Below are positions 3,756-18,418 of a stretch of DNA of 32,786 bases, piece by piece. The stretch is from a virus, in the IMG/VR virus record IMGVR_UViG_3300048587_001152, positions 1-32,786 of that record; one strand, written 5' to 3'. Under the pieces are notes generated by a model. That model saw only the letters and a program-made list of their open reading frames with translations, did not search any database and was not told the origin of the DNA. The translations under genes were made by a program, and so were the position numbers. The stretch's first letter is position 1. Every line of letters begins with the position of its first letter.

Positions 3756-4066
3756 CCACCACCGCCGCGGTGCAGCCTCCCGGCCAGATGCACCTGGTGC
3801 CGCCGACCCCTGACCGGTCGGCGTCGTCGTACCGGGTGGTGTTCGTCCCCGATGCCGGCACCCCCCGGGAGACCGCTCCGGTCCGGGATCTGCCGGTCGC
3901 CGCTGGCCGCGCCCATCACGCCGCCAGCAGGTACGGGGAGGCGTGGATCGTCGCCGCTGACGGCTCCTCGGCGCACGTCGACGCCGCCGGCACCGTCACC
4001 CCTCTCTCCGGGTGGGCCACCAAGGCCGCCCGGGTCATCACCAACAGGAAGGCCCCCTCCCCATGA
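3752..4066 (+). CDS. Hypothetical protein, 104 aa
   Basis: Unknown function. It begins at an ATGA overlap and ends at an ATGA overlap with the ParB-like gene. The first 25 residues are proline-rich and probably disordered. The rest reads as a small alpha/beta domain (SYRVVFVPDAG, GEAWIVAADGSSAHVDAAG). No ligand cluster, membrane segment or signal peptide is visible. Coupling to the ParB-like gene makes co-function plausible but unproven. Confidence 0.65.
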   Translation: MTTTAAVQPPGQMHLVPPTPDRSASSYRVVFVPDAGTPRETAPVRDLPVAAGRAHHAASRYGEAWIVAADGSSAHVDAAGTVTPLSGWATKAARVITNRKAPSP

Positions 4067-5838
4067 CCACCACCGACCCCAGCCAGGCCGTCTCGATCGA
4101 GCTGGTCGAGATCCCGCTCGACCAGCTGGTCCCGCACCCCGACAACGTGCGCCGCCGCCTCGGCGACGTCTCCGAGCTCGCCAAGTCGATCGCCGGCTCC
4201 GGCGTCCTCGAACCGCTCCTCGTGCTCCCCGCCGGCGACAACGACCAGCACATGGTCGTCGCCGGCCACCGCCGCCTCTCCGGAGCGAAGAAGGCCAAGC
4301 TCGCCACCGTCCCGTGCGTGATCCGCGACCTCACCGAGGTCGAGGTCCTCGAGACGATGCTGACGGAGAACCTGCAGCGCGCCGAGATCACCCCGGTCGA
4401 AGAGGCCCGCGCCTACGCCCGCCTGATCGATCTCGGCTCGTCGATCGCCGAGATCGCCCGCAAGGTCGGCCGCCGCCCCGAGCTCATCAAGTCCCGGCTC
4501 GCGATCACCGTCCTGCCCGCCAAGGTCCTCAACGCCGTCGACGCCGGCGACCTCCGCCTCGGCGACGCCGAGGACGCCACCAAGTACGCCGACGACGACG
4601 ACGCCATGGACTACCTGGTCTCGATCCTCGGCCAGCACCACAACCCGGTGTACGCGACCGGCAACTACATCTCGAACCGCGACCACGACCGCGAGATCGC
4701 CTCGATCACCGAGAAGCTCACCGCCAAGGGCATCTCGATCTTCACCCCCACCGACAAGTACTGGCGGCCCCCCTACCACCTCAACCTGTCGAAGCCGACC
4801 ACCCTCAAGCTGCTCGGCCTCACCGCCACCCAGCACCGCGCCGAGCCCTGCCACGCCGTCTACATCGGCTCCGGCGGCTGGTCCTCGAAGGTCGAACAGG
4901 TCCAGATGTGCACCGCCCCCAAGCGGCACACCACCAAGGGCAAGCCCGCCGACCGCTCCGACCTCCAGATCGACCCGGCGAAGTACTCCTCCACGCCCGA
5001 CGCCACCCAGGCGAAGGCGCGCAGCGACAAGAAGCTCCGCACCCTCGCCGAGGCCCGCCACGTCGACGCCGCCGCCGAACGGTTCCTCCACAGCCCGCTC
5101 CGCACCTTCGGCGAGGACGTCCAGGCGATGACCCTCGCCGTCCTCAACGCCCACATCGACGCCCGCTACCAGGACCGCAACGCCATCCGGACGCTCGCCT
5201 GCAAGCTGGCCGCCGCCGACGTCATCCCCGACGGCCCCAACTCGACCACCCCCGACTGGGACACCACCTGGGACCTGTTCACCAGCGACCCCACCAACTA
5301 CCCGAAGGCCATCGCCGCCGCCTCGACCGCCATCTGCCTCCACCAGGCGGCCGGCACCGACCACTCCTGGAACCGCGGCGGCTACACCGCTCTGCTCACC
5401 TGGCTGATGCACACCGGCTACGACCCGGCCGACGACGAGCTCGACCTGATCGAAGCGACCTTCGCCCACCAGCTCGAGGACCACGACGAGCTGACCCGGT
5501 ACGTGACCGAGCTGCTCGCCAACCAGCCGCCCACCCCCACCACCACGACGACGACGGCATCGGCGGAACCGGCCACCTCCGAGCTCGACGACCTCACGGC
5601 CCGCGCCGCCACCCTCGAAGACGGCCCCGAGCTCGACCATGTGAACGCCCGCATCGCCGAGCTCCTCGACCTCACCTCCCGCCCCTACTTCCTGTGCGTC
5701 GAGTCCACCGGCGAACGCTGGGGCACCCACAGCTTCGCCACCTTCGACGAGGCCCTCGACGCCCAGGCCGCCGCCATGGAAGCCGAACCCAGCCTCATCC
5801 TCGCCGTCCACACCCACACCACCCCCGAGGCGAGCTGA
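4063..5838 (+). CDS. Large ParB/Spo0J-family DNA-binding protein
   Basis: A 591-residue ParB-family protein. The N-terminal domain has IPLDQLVPHPDNVRR (about 17-31), a GHRR box (68-71) in VVAGHRRLSGAKKA, and ENLQR (102-106), followed by a helix-turn-helix around 126-147 (SSIAEIARKVGRRPELIKSR). These are the nucleotide-binding and DNA-binding signatures of the family. The remaining 440 residues are not recognisable as standard ParB dimerisation sequence and include a threonine-rich linker near residue 490. No ParA partner is encoded nearby. It may act in partition of a plasmid-like state, in transcription, or in chromatin spreading on phage DNA. The start is set by the ATGA overlap, with AGGAAGG upstream at about 4046-4052. 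Confidence 0.85.
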   Translation: MTTTDPSQAVSIELVEIPLDQLVPHPDNVRRRLGDVSELAKSIAGSGVLEPLLVLPAGDNDQHMVVAGHRRLSGAKKAKLATVPCVIRDLTEVEVLETMLTENLQRAEITPVEEARAYARLIDLGSSIAEIARKVGRRPELIKSRLAITVLPAKVLNAVDAGDLRLGDAEDATKYADDDDAMDYLVSILGQHHNPVYATGNYISNRDHDREIASITEKLTAKGISIFTPTDKYWRPPYHLNLSKPTTLKLLGLTATQHRAEPCHAVYIGSGGWSSKVEQVQMCTAPKRHTTKGKPADRSDLQIDPAKYSSTPDATQAKARSDKKLRTLAEARHVDAAAERFLHSPLRTFGEDVQAMTLAVLNAHIDARYQDRNAIRTLACKLAAADVIPDGPNSTTPDWDTTWDLFTSDPTNYPKAIAAASTAICLHQAAGTDHSWNRGGYTALLTWLMHTGYDPADDELDLIEATFAHQLEDHDELTRYVTELLANQPPTPTTTTTTASAEPATSELDDLTARAATLEDGPELDHVNARIAELLDLTSRPYFLCVESTGERWGTHSFATFDEALDAQAAAMEAEPSLILAVHTHTTPEAS

Positions 5839-7599: not shown

Positions 7600-8426
7600 C
7601 CCCGCCCGCTGAGCGTCGCTGGCGCCGCCGCCAGCCCATCACCGCCGGCCTCGCCCTCCTGGCCTTCCTGCGTGCCAACCGCCAGGGGCCTCCGAACGAT
7701 GGACATGTGTGCCGCCCGATGCTCGTCACCCCGCGGCCGAAGGCGAAGCCCACGGAGCTGTGGTTCGGCTCGAACGAGGAGTACGGCGACGTCGACCCGA
7801 TGGCTGCCTACGGGCGCCTGTCCTCCTGGATGGACGACGACGAGTTGGGCCCGTGGACCCTTGAGCGCTACGGCGTGCGGCCGACGGTCGACCACTTGCC
7901 GTCGGCCGAGCAGATCCTCGAATGGGTTGAGTCGATCGACGAGGCGGACGACTTCAGGTCGTCCACCACCGTTGTCATGGAGCAGATCGACCAGTGGTCG
8001 AGCGAACACGGCGAGATCGACGAGTGGTGGTGTGACCAGCTCATGGACGTCTCGCCGGAGGTGGCCGAGGACCTCGTCGCCAGTCCGACGCTCGAGACCG
8101 CCGAGGCGCTGCGTCAGGCCGTCGCCGACGAGATCACCTACGTCATGGCCGGCGAACACCTCAGCACCCACCAGCTGACCCGCACCACCGACGGCAGGGT
8201 CCTCCTCGACGGCGAAGTGATCGGGGAGTGGACGCCCATCCCGCCGCCGTGCTGCCGGGCCTGTGTCGGCACCCCGCTCACCGAGCTCGGCCAGCGCTCG
8301 GTTCACCCGCGATGCCCCACCTGCGGGGACGTCTTCTGCCCCCGTGCCACGTCACACCTGAACCGCTGCCCCTCGACCGATGGGCACGGCTGCGCCCCGG
8401 GCGGCTACAAGGTGGGCGAACGCTGA
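7596..8426 (+). CDS. Acidic protein with C-terminal zinc-ribbon-like cluster
   Basis: I do not recognise this 276-residue protein. The N-terminal 30 residues are basic with a short hydrophobic stretch. The centre is very acidic (many D/E, W-rich). The last 45 residues carry a dense cysteine cluster (CCRACVG ... RCPTCGDVFCPR ... HLNRCPS) consistent with one or two zinc sites. The GTG start overlaps the previous stop (GTGA, with GGAGG ten bases upstream). An ATG at 7721 is a possible alternative start. The stop overlaps the ATG of the HNH-fusion gene (TGATG), so both are probably made together. Confidence 0.65.
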   Translation: MTPPAERRWRRRQPITAGLALLAFLRANRQGPPNDGHVCRPMLVTPRPKAKPTELWFGSNEEYGDVDPMAAYGRLSSWMDDDELGPWTLERYGVRPTVDHLPSAEQILEWVESIDEADDFRSSTTVVMEQIDQWSSEHGEIDEWWCDQLMDVSPEVAEDLVASPTLETAEALRQAVADEITYVMAGEHLSTHQLTRTTDGRVLLDGEVIGEWTPIPPPCCRACVGTPLTELGQRSVHPRCPTCGDVFCPRATSHLNRCPSTDGHGCAPGGYKVGER

Positions 8427-9577
8427 TGGCGTGGTTCAAGGTGTCCGACGACTGGATCGATCACCCGAAGGTGCAGCGCGCTGGCCGCAACGGCCGCGCC
8501 TTGTGGATCGCTGCGGGGAACCGGTGCGCGAAGTACTCGTCGGACGGGCTGATCGAGAAGGACCTGCTCCGCACCTACGCCGCGCTCGCCGAGGTCCCGG
8601 CCCCGTCGACGGCGAACAAGCTGGTCGAGGTCGGGCTGTGGCACGACCACGAGTCGCTCAAGAAGTGCACGACGTGCAAGGCGTCGATCGAGGCGATCAA
8701 CCGGGAGCGAGCGTCAGTCGACGAGCCGCGCCTGGTCGTCGGGCCCGGCGACTACTACTTCCACGACTGGGCCGCCCACCAGCTCCCCAAGCACCGCACG
8801 CTGTCCCCGGAGGCCAAGGCCGCCGACGACCGGCTCCGGGCGCTCAAGAAGGACCGGGGGCTGTGCGAGGAGATCCAGAAGCGTGACCGGGCCCGCTGCC
8901 GCTACTGCGGCCGCCAGGTCAACTGGAAGGCCCGACGAGGTGACGCATACGCCACCTATGACCACGTCGACCCCTGGTGCTTCGCCCCGAACTCCGGCAA
9001 CTTCCTCGAGGGCGTCGTCACGGCGTGCGGCGACTGCAACGGCCGCAAGGGCCAGCGCACCGCCGCCGAGTGGGAAGCCGACGGCGGCCTGCCGCTCCGC
9101 ACCCCGGGGTGGCGCCAGGGCGACCCGTGGCCCCCCAGCGGAGCCGCTCCCGTCGCCTCGACGCCGGCTCTCCCGGCCGCCGATCAGCCCGAAATCGGGG
9201 AAAACCTGGAGCTCGAAAACGCTGCGAATCCCGACGAAATCACAAGCGTGCAAGCGCAGCGGAATCCGGTCGGATTCACGGCCAGTTCAACGACCCCGCA
9301 CCCCCTCCCACCTGGGCAGGGATCTAGCTCCGGACCTAGCCCGGATCTAGCCCGTTTTGATTTTCGATCTAGTCCCACACGTGCGCACGGGCGCGCCCGT
9401 GCGCGACTGGGGCCGGGCCGGGTCGGGCTAGATCCGGGACTAGGTCCGGGACCAGGTCCGGTTCGGTCCGGGCTGGGTCTGGTCGGGCTGGTCCGGGCTG
9501 GGTCGGGAGCGCCGCCAGGCGCCAGCCCTGTCGTGTCCGGTGAGACCTCGAGTGCTGTGGAGGAGTCCGATGGGTGA
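8426..9577 (+). CDS. Replication-initiator-like N-terminus fused to HNH endonuclease
   Basis: A 383-residue protein in three parts. Residues 1-125 (MAWFKVSDDWIDHPKVQRAG, RALWIAAGNRCAKY, GLIEKDLL) resemble the winged-helix domain found at the start of phage replication or replisome-organiser proteins. Residues 150-215 form an HNH nuclease: C158/C161, DH at 179-180, N192, and C201/C204 with N205 in ACGDCNGRKG. Residues from about 290 on are low-complexity Gly/Pro/Arg/Ser, encoded by DNA full of inverted and direct repeats, so selection there is probably on DNA rather than protein. The start is set by the TGATG overlap; the stop overlaps the next gene by eight bases. Naming as initiator is inference. 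Confidence 0.78.
   Translation: MAWFKVSDDWIDHPKVQRAGRNGRALWIAAGNRCAKYSSDGLIEKDLLRTYAALAEVPAPSTANKLVEVGLWHDHESLKKCTTCKASIEAINRERASVDEPRLVVGPGDYYFHDWAAHQLPKHRTLSPEAKAADDRLRALKKDRGLCEEIQKRDRARCRYCGRQVNWKARRGDAYATYDHVDPWCFAPNSGNFLEGVVTACGDCNGRKGQRTAAEWEADGGLPLRTPGWRQGDPWPPSGAAPVASTPALPAADQPEIGENLELENAANPDEITSVQAQRNPVGFTASSTTPHPLPPGQGSSSGPSPDLARFDFRSSPTRAHGRARARLGPGRVGLDPGLGPGPGPVRSGLGLVGLVRAGSGAPPGASPVVSGETSSAVEESDG
9262..9277 (+). repeat. Short inverted repeat in the HNH-fusion gene
   Basis: Two 7-base arms, GAATCCG and CGGATTC, are separated by GT. They lie in an unusually A-rich stretch (about 9195-9250) just before the larger repeat element. It may be part of the same regulatory or origin region; alone it could be chance. 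Confidence 0.45.
9321..9498 (+). repeat. Inverted/iteron-like repeat element with central palindrome
   Basis: Three GATCTAG copies lie at 9321, 9344 and 9366 (23 and 22 bp apart). The left arm 9330-9354 is complementary to 9424-9449 except for one inserted base. Near the centre sits a perfect 22-bp palindrome at 9383-9404 (GCGCACGGGCG and its complement). To the right, 10-12 bp units fade out: CTAGATCCGGGA (9428), CTAGGTCCGGGA (9440), CCAGGTCCGG (9452), TTCGGTCCGGG (9462), CTGGGTCTGGT (9473). A T-rich patch (CGTTTTGATTTTCG) lies at 9353-9366. The layout suits an origin with iterons, or a multi-site operator. Confidence 0.85.
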
Positions 9578-10915: not shown

Positions 10916-11036
10916 TTCGCCGTTCCCGGGCTGCTGTTGGTGGGATCCGCTGGTGGTTCGGGTTGTGTCGTCAGGGCGGGCGCGAGGGGGCCGCCCAGAC
11001 GACGACGGTCGTGCCTGTACCTCGAGGAGGTTGCCG

Positions 11037-17888: not shown

Positions 17889-17922
17889 GCCGCCCCGGTC
17901 CGCTGAACCGGGCCCGGGCGGC
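17889..17922 (+). terminator. Hairpin immediately before the poly-C tract
   Basis: Outer arms GCCGCC (17889-17894) and GGCGGC (17917-17922) enclose inner arms CCGGT (17895-17899) and ACCGG (17907-17911), with a bulge on the right side. It starts 17 bases after the stop at 17871 and runs into the C homopolymer. It is possibly an attenuator or terminator. Confidence 0.55.
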
Positions 17923-17948
17923 CCCCCCCCCCCCCCCCCCCCCCCCCC
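17922..17948 (+). repeat. 27-base C homopolymer
   Basis: Twenty-seven consecutive C residues lie between a hairpin and the ribosome site of the next gene, continuing as a C-rich run to 17961. Tracts of this length are hypermutable in replication and error-prone in sequencing, so the exact length is uncertain. Confidence 0.9.
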
Positions 17949-17977
17949 ACCCCTCACCCCCTTCTGGAGGCGCTGCG

Positions 17978-18418
17978 ATGCGCGTTCGCATGACCACCAA
18001 CATCGGCGGCTTCCGCAACAGCGAGCCGTGGCCCCGCAAGGGCGAGATCACCGACCTGCCCGCCCACGAGGCGGCCGACCTGATCGAGGTCGGCTACGCC
18101 GTGCCCGTCGAGGAGGATCCCCATGCCCCCGACCCCACCCCCGGGAACGGACCGGATGCGCCGGCCGCCGCACCCGTCGAGGCCGACGCCGGCCACAGCG
18201 ATGCGCCGCCCGCCGGTGACGCGCCCGGGCCCGACAGCGACACCCCCGAGCCCGACGTCGCCGACGCCATCACCGCCGACGACACGGTGAGCGCCGGGCT
18301 CGCCGGGCTCGACAAGCCCGCGCTGATCGCCCTGGCTGCGAAGCACGGCATCGACGTCTCCGGGCGTTGGGCGGCCAAGCGGCTCCGCCAGGAGATCGCT
18401 GCGGCGCTCGGCGGCTGA
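17978..18418 (+). CDS. Small head-tail module protein with SAP/HeH-like C-terminus
   Basis: A 146-residue protein. Residues 1-46 form a small beta domain (RVRMTTNIGGFRNSEPWPRK ... ITDLPAHEAADLIEVGYAVP) common in phage head-tail regions. Residues 47-105 are a disordered Pro/Asp/Ala linker. The C-terminal 40 residues (LDKPALIALAAKHGIDVSGR plus AAKRLRQEIAAAL) look like a SAP or HeH-type helix-extension-helix motif. TGGAGG at 17964-17969 precedes the ATG. A shorter relative with the same ending lies at 19462. It is likely a structural or assembly accessory. Confidence 0.7.
   Translation: MRVRMTTNIGGFRNSEPWPRKGEITDLPAHEAADLIEVGYAVPVEEDPHAPDPTPGNGPDAPAAAPVEADAGHSDAPPAGDAPGPDSDTPEPDVADAITADDTVSAGLAGLDKPALIALAAKHGIDVSGRWAAKRLRQEIAAALGG

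Follow-up and report, generated by a model that had tools for sequence, protein, structure and literature searches.

The initiator-like gene and its neighborhood

The window, that is, the whole stretch of DNA analyzed here, is a 32,786-base IMG/VR virus record whose class is given as linear. It holds ParB-like, initiator-like, endonuclease VII, terminase, capsid, tail, lysin and integrase genes (the capsid, tail and lysin assignments come from the reading of the ORFs), and by this gene content it reads as an actinophage or a prophage. The initiator-like gene lies at positions 8426-9577 on the plus strand and, by phrog and Pfam matches and synteny, encodes an N-terminal winged-helix domain, an HNH domain and a low-complexity linker. 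The linker coincides with a DNA repeat element in the 3' third of the gene, whose 3' end is overlapped by the next ORF. A ParB-like gene (4057-5838) precedes the initiator by a few kb, as it does in Hedwig, Nyceirae, Dogfish, Maja and Zaheer; as far as gene order can be read, ParB-like gene then initiator is a conserved early-gene order in the window and these named phages.

Residues 1-133 of the window protein resemble phrog_2447, annotated 'replication initiation protein' (E=1.3e-17), and residues 1-302 resemble phrog_15463 (E=1.6e-15), which agrees with an earlier sequence-only reading of this DNA, according to which the gene opens with a replication-initiator-like domain. The putative N-terminal DNA-binding (winged-helix-like) domain, encoded by 8426-8785 on the plus strand, was assigned from an AlphaFold2 model and structural matches; the pLDDT is 89 for the model of residues 1-225 and 94.5 for that of the N-domain of an HNH-less relative. 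Among the best structural matches of the latter are RepA_N plasmid initiators and ORC winged helices at Z 7.0-7.5, which is below the level of a clear match and is also reached by common arrangements. The HNH nuclease domain (8897-9058, plus strand), with CxxC, DH, N and CxxCN..K, matches PF01844 at 22.6 bits (cut-off 21.4), and HNH structures align with residues 138-225 at Z ~7. The viral structure matches of the window model include AGM13/AGM16 'HNH-endonuclease', phage VWB and several 'Replisome organizer' models. In a Foldseek search against the PDB, neither model had a match at E<=0.001; the N-domain family is missing from the first Foldseek list, which is uninformative because HNH domains fill that list.

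The window protein showed no match to Pfam RepA_N (PF06970) at E 0.1, the resemblance being one of fold only, and no Phage_rep_org_N (PF09681), to which one relative scores 15.8 bits, below the cut-off of 23.3. By Pfam, the window initiator is outside both families, and by its phrog matches it is a member of the HNH-type actinophage initiator group defined here (phrog_15463/26098). The C-termini of the HNH-less relatives match primosomal and replication-initiation families; the HNH-type C-terminus showed no domain that would contact helicase or primase.

CTAG repeats, inverted arms and palindrome

Six CTAG tetramers, at 9324, 9336, 9347, 9369, 9428 and 9440, fall within 120 bp (9324-9443) and account for six of the ten in the window, where 24.3 would be expected from dinucleotide shuffles. 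Taking the four CTAG in the other 32.7 kb as background, the Poisson P is ~1e-14; the rate derived from the shuffles gives 6e-10 for each 120-bp tile, uncorrected for ~273 tiles. In 500 synonymous resamplings of the linker, CTAG occurs 1.0 times on average and at most 5 times, against the six observed, so the cluster is not forced by the peptide. The successive spacings are 12, 11, 22, 59 and 12.

The left iteron block (9318-9354), with CTAG units of 11-12 bp, holds the 25-nt arm 9330-9354. The right block (9424-9450), with CTAG at 9428 and 9440, is its inverted copy; the 26-nt arm 9424-9449 differs from the left arm by one inserted T, and the two share a 15-bp exact core. A T-rich patch on the plus strand (9355-9372) ends in the fourth CTAG and may be an unwinding site; beyond these 18 bp, no A+T-rich region adjoining the repeats was found. 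The palindrome GCGCACGGGCGCGCCCGTGCGC (9383-9404) is perfect, is the sole 22-bp one in the window and lies near the center of the arms. Degenerating G-rich repeats (GGTCCGGG, GGGTC) follow at 9451-9509 on the plus strand, with a three-tract run at 9495-9507. In addition, the single strand of the element folds far more stably than shuffles (z = -6.98). The sequence-only reading had placed six CTAG within about 120 bp, with arms inverted apart from one base and a perfect 22-bp palindrome near their center beside the T-rich patch; the positions are confirmed, the cluster is far above chance, the odd base is the inserted T, and the palindrome is as described and occurs only once. The helical phasing that it had proposed holds within the blocks but not across the center, where the gap is 59 bp.

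Scanning IMG/VR directly with the window protein gave no matches, and the relatives were reached via the terminase and later alignments. The nearest relative with the gene (L015:6095-7183) has the same gene order and 49% identity over 232 aa. No CTAG is present in its linker, in which C-rich repeats and then G-rich repeats are retained. Loss of the repeats in close relatives that keep the gene had been named in the sequence-only reading among the findings that would refute its element; for the CTAG part such loss is seen here, in a relative that is only 49% identical. The contig with 98% identity in TerL (L011) begins at window base 10977 and so does not reach the gene. Seven other contigs contain the 15-bp CTAG unit; no initiator is present in the stretches of them that were examined, and the unit is absent from all other initiators found. 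Window-type CTAG iterons were accordingly rejected as a conserved signal. As judged from these comparisons, the CTAG unit is private to the window phage.

A short-loop G-tract array is conserved in initiator genes

The conserved feature, in the sequences compared, is not the CTAG iterons but a short-loop (GGGNN)n array. In the window it is GGGGCCGGGCCGGGTCGGG, a (GGGNN)4 array at 9409-9427 on the plus strand, which was absent from the sequence-only reading. No other short-loop four-tract G run occurs in the window, and the array fits, as a sequence motif only, the G-quadruplex pattern of four runs of three or more G separated by loops of 1-7. The array stands at 0.86 of the gene length, within the 10-90% range of the HNH-type relatives (0.85-0.90). 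The other short-loop four-tract runs of the window are two C-rich ones, at 17922-17961 and 18119-18142. The former is a near-pure C run of 40 bp within an ORF region, perhaps prone to slippage or else an artefact of assembly.

A scan of IMG/VR with 14- and 20-base repeats yielded 190 loci, 89 of them with the initiator N-domain; in 81 of these 89 the repeat is inside the initiator gene (75 in one orientation, 6 in the other). As the repeat itself had been the seed here, further sets were collected in which initiators were chosen by protein only and then scored for arrays. Sampling of prokaryote genomes for phrog_2447 gave too few loci (10/396). GACCC repeats were rejected as an initiator-only signal, many of the initiator-less matches being low- or mid-GC contigs with microsatellites, and for this reason too the later tests used the protein-selected sets. 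Tandem repeats of the GGGTC type are also present in initiator-less low-GC viral contigs, outside ORFs (L051, L057, L070, L082 and similar IMG/VR loci), where they are unrelated microsatellites or have another role.

Both sets include related phages, and only genes with the same start (identical over the first 330-400 nt) were collapsed as redundant; the following counts are therefore not independent events: among 51 non-redundant HNH-type genes from IMG/VR, (GGGNN)3 is on the coding strand in 51/51 and (GGGNN)4 in 49/51, and among 76 HNH-less genes, taken from the best 80 of 358 matches, (CCCNN)4 is present in 43. The flanks hold one (GGGNN)4 in 268 kb for the HNH-type set and one (CCCNN)4 in 387 kb for the HNH-less set from the best 80 of 358. 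After synonymous permutation, the array is kept by a mean of 1.7 HNH-type genes and 4.2 HNH-less genes (best 80 of 358). The share of 2-nt gaps among the short tract gaps is 0.74 and 0.62 in the two sets, compared to 0.17 and 0.16 in the flanks. The genomes of AGM1, Nyceirae and Zaheer contain no short-loop four-tract motif other than the array.

Both sets show an enrichment of repeats (P ~2e-8 and 1.5e-7) over the 130 bp immediately upstream of the array. These iteron-like repeats vary in sequence from phage to phage, and the CTAG units of the window are read as a phage-specific version of them. In Megiddo (L396), Crossroads (L399) and Spartoi (L397), which have the N-domain gene, no short-loop array of G or C tracts was seen, and other elements may serve in their origins.

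GC skew at the array

The sequence-only reading had proposed GC skew as a check on an origin here. The cumulative GC-skew minimum of the window is at 9380, inside the element and next to the palindrome, and it is at 9190 when +-200 bp around the array is masked. With masking, the window and six of seven complete genomes have their minimum at 0.2-3 kb from the array; the seventh genome, AGM1, is the exception, its circular minimum shifting 13 kb away once the array is masked (combined P=0.0016). Across 41 HNH-type loci, with +-500 bp left out, the skew rises from -0.034 to +0.023, and the flip is present in 36/41 (P=3e-7). The HNH-less set (from the best 80 of 358) shows no flip (P=0.63). The skew turn is also near the border of the early and packaging genes, and it is therefore taken as support rather than proof.

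A probable replication origin and its alternatives

Positions 9318-9509 are probably the replication origin of an uncultivated actinophage, placed in the linker of its own initiator gene. In two named phages, the gene stands beside a helicase-loader-like or DnaB-like gene, which adds support. The candidate origin that the sequence-only reading had seen in an initiator-like gene has thus gained from the initiator families, the skew, the DNA conservation and the arrays outside the reading frame described below, and it has lost the CTAG iterons as its diagnostic.

It is possible, though rather unlikely, that the element is an origin whose G/C-tract array, instead of forming a G-quadruplex, provides a series of sites for priming or ssDNA loading. 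GGGTC and GGGAC are the main G-strand units in both sets (the HNH-less one from the best 80 of 358), at a strict 5-nt spacing, and GGGTC and TGGTC presumably resemble T7 primase sites. However, other units (CCCAT, CCCTT and CCCAA), together with the 6-nt tract spacing in Hedwig and the (CCCGTA)n relatives, favor tracts over one sequence. Across the genes compared, the array is in strict register and appears conserved as tracts more than as a single sequence; it could be an opening or holding element via a G-quadruplex, or a row of priming sites.

Palindromes and phased repeats fit a dimeric regulator, and the window has both. The element might then be a multi-site operator, with the encoded protein or a repressor on the CTAG repeats controlling downstream genes. 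This is improbable, since the element is intragenic, no promoter-like site was found within 500 bp (by sigma-70 consensus only) and the next ORF overlaps the end of the gene; moreover, the conserved GGGNN array and its tie to initiator genes would be left unexplained.

Selection for a flexible G/P-rich peptide, or slippage repeats without a DNA function, would account for the low complexity of the encoded peptide and for the different linker repeats of several relatives, including the 198-bp tandem repeats of AGM1. This explanation is quite improbable, as one DNA unit, on either strand, gives unlike peptides. The linker RPDPTRP of the prophage and phage relatives is the translation of tandem CCCGA, and GSGRVG of the AGM1-like proteins is the translation of its complement; the array peptides differ (RPDPT or GSGRV) because the G-strand units are alike but the gene direction is opposite. 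Synonymous permutation, which leaves the peptide as it is, destroys the array. The third bases are also conserved: at four-fold sites with the same amino acid in 21 related initiator pairs, 15/175 differ in the arrays (8.6%), compared to 402/1503 in the rest of the linker (26.7%) and 476/1461 in the domains (32.6%), the arrays being lower at P=1e-8 against the linker and P=9e-13 against the domains. Furthermore, some HNH-less relatives have an ORF that stops early, at 111-125 codons, and in 8/8 of them the array is outside the reading frame, 32-106 nt past the stop. On this evidence, the array is conserved as DNA and not as peptide. The sequence-only reading had held it likely that the DNA itself is selected and had proposed, as a check, that DNA conservation should exceed protein conservation in relatives; this is borne out for the G-tract array (8.6% vs 32.6%) and not for the CTAG units.

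The ORF of the early-stop loci (L265, L268, L271, L298, L311, L312, L313, L328) stops after the N-domain, and the repeats and array lie beyond it; these are either split initiators with the origin between the parts or frameshifts.

A packaging or recombination signal (cos/pac, Chi-like) is very improbable: in AGM1 and its kin the gene is only a few kb away from the terminase genes and from the end of the genome, but the annotated cos of AGM1 (36024-36032) is 1.8 kb from the array, and the array stays with the initiator gene well inside the genome in phages such as prophiT36-2a and Cerasum.

Proposed mechanism and comparison with known systems

If 9318-9509 is the origin, the winged-helix N-domain would bind the phage-specific repeats, here the CTAG units, and the strands would next open at the T-rich patch or at the G-tract array. 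The G strand may then fold into a G-quadruplex, holding the duplex open, whereupon helicase and primase would load; the HNH domain could possibly nick the origin. By analogy with pSK41 rep and SPP1 oriL, the N-domain would attach to repeats within the gene that encodes it and open the adjacent DNA.

At the pSK41-type RepA_N plasmid origin, which serves theta replication, the winged-helix N-domain binds boxes central in the rep gene, and the ori-encoded linker can be dispensed with as protein (PMC5703833). The N-domain has some of its best structural matches, at Z ~7, among RepA_N structures. On the other hand, the pSK41 ori is A+T-rich, whereas a G-tract array and an HNH domain are found here, and the window protein has neither a Pfam RepA_N match nor a C-terminal primase-contacting domain that could be seen. 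SPP1 oriL has direct repeats that are bound by the initiator and lie inside the initiator gene 38 (PMC6316719), and the placement of the repeats within the initiator gene is similar in both cases. SPP1 differs in having an AT-rich unwinding region, and no G-tract array is mentioned in the passages of PMC6316719 consulted. The window element and the lambda ori are alike in having iterons inside an initiator gene. The lambda ori has four 18-bp iterons and an AT-rich region. No sequence relation between it and the window element was found; its location in gene O is cited in PMC7157519. For mycobacterial prophages, which have a different initiator family, that 2020 study saw no repeats and presumed a cis-acting ori within or beside repA (PMC7157519).

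AGM1 gp50 and the other HNH-type initiators (phrog_15463, phrog_26098) share with the window the N-domain, the HNH domain and a coding-strand (GGGNN)n near the gene end. AGM1, a Brevibacterium phage, differs in that its initiator stretch contains no CTAG and has 198-bp tandem repeats upstream of the array; these annotated repeats fall in the initiator gene gp50 (L003 1535-2326), which is annotated as an HNH endonuclease only. De Melo et al. in 2020 reportedly dealt with copy-number variation among AGM phages. Because the 198-bp repeats are in the initiator gene, such variation may alter the origin region.

The origin-in-initiator arrangement is already known; the G-tract array is the new part, as no description of it was found, nor the repeat printed in a phage context, in a literature coverage that is incomplete. 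Phage origins with a G-quadruplex were likewise not found in the literature searched, which is not proof of novelty. We tentatively suggest, as a possibility that is itself doubtful, an undescribed class of phage origin, in which a short-loop G-tract (G-quadruplex-type) core replaces the AT-rich unwinding region, which is carried in actinophage initiator genes of two architectures on opposite strands, and whose HNH type may nick its own origin.

Few actinophage replication origins have been mapped. The array pattern flags candidate origins in many sequenced actinophages and makes origins testable in laboratory phages such as AGM1, Nyceirae, Maja and Cerasum, the first three of which have as hosts Brevibacterium aurantiacum, Gordonia terrae 3612 and Arthrobacter globiformis, respectively. 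Genes now annotated as hypothetical or HNH endonuclease would gain a replication role, and actinobacterial vectors could draw on these origins. Should the array fold as a G-quadruplex, this would reveal how a high-GC virus can open its DNA without an AT-rich stretch.
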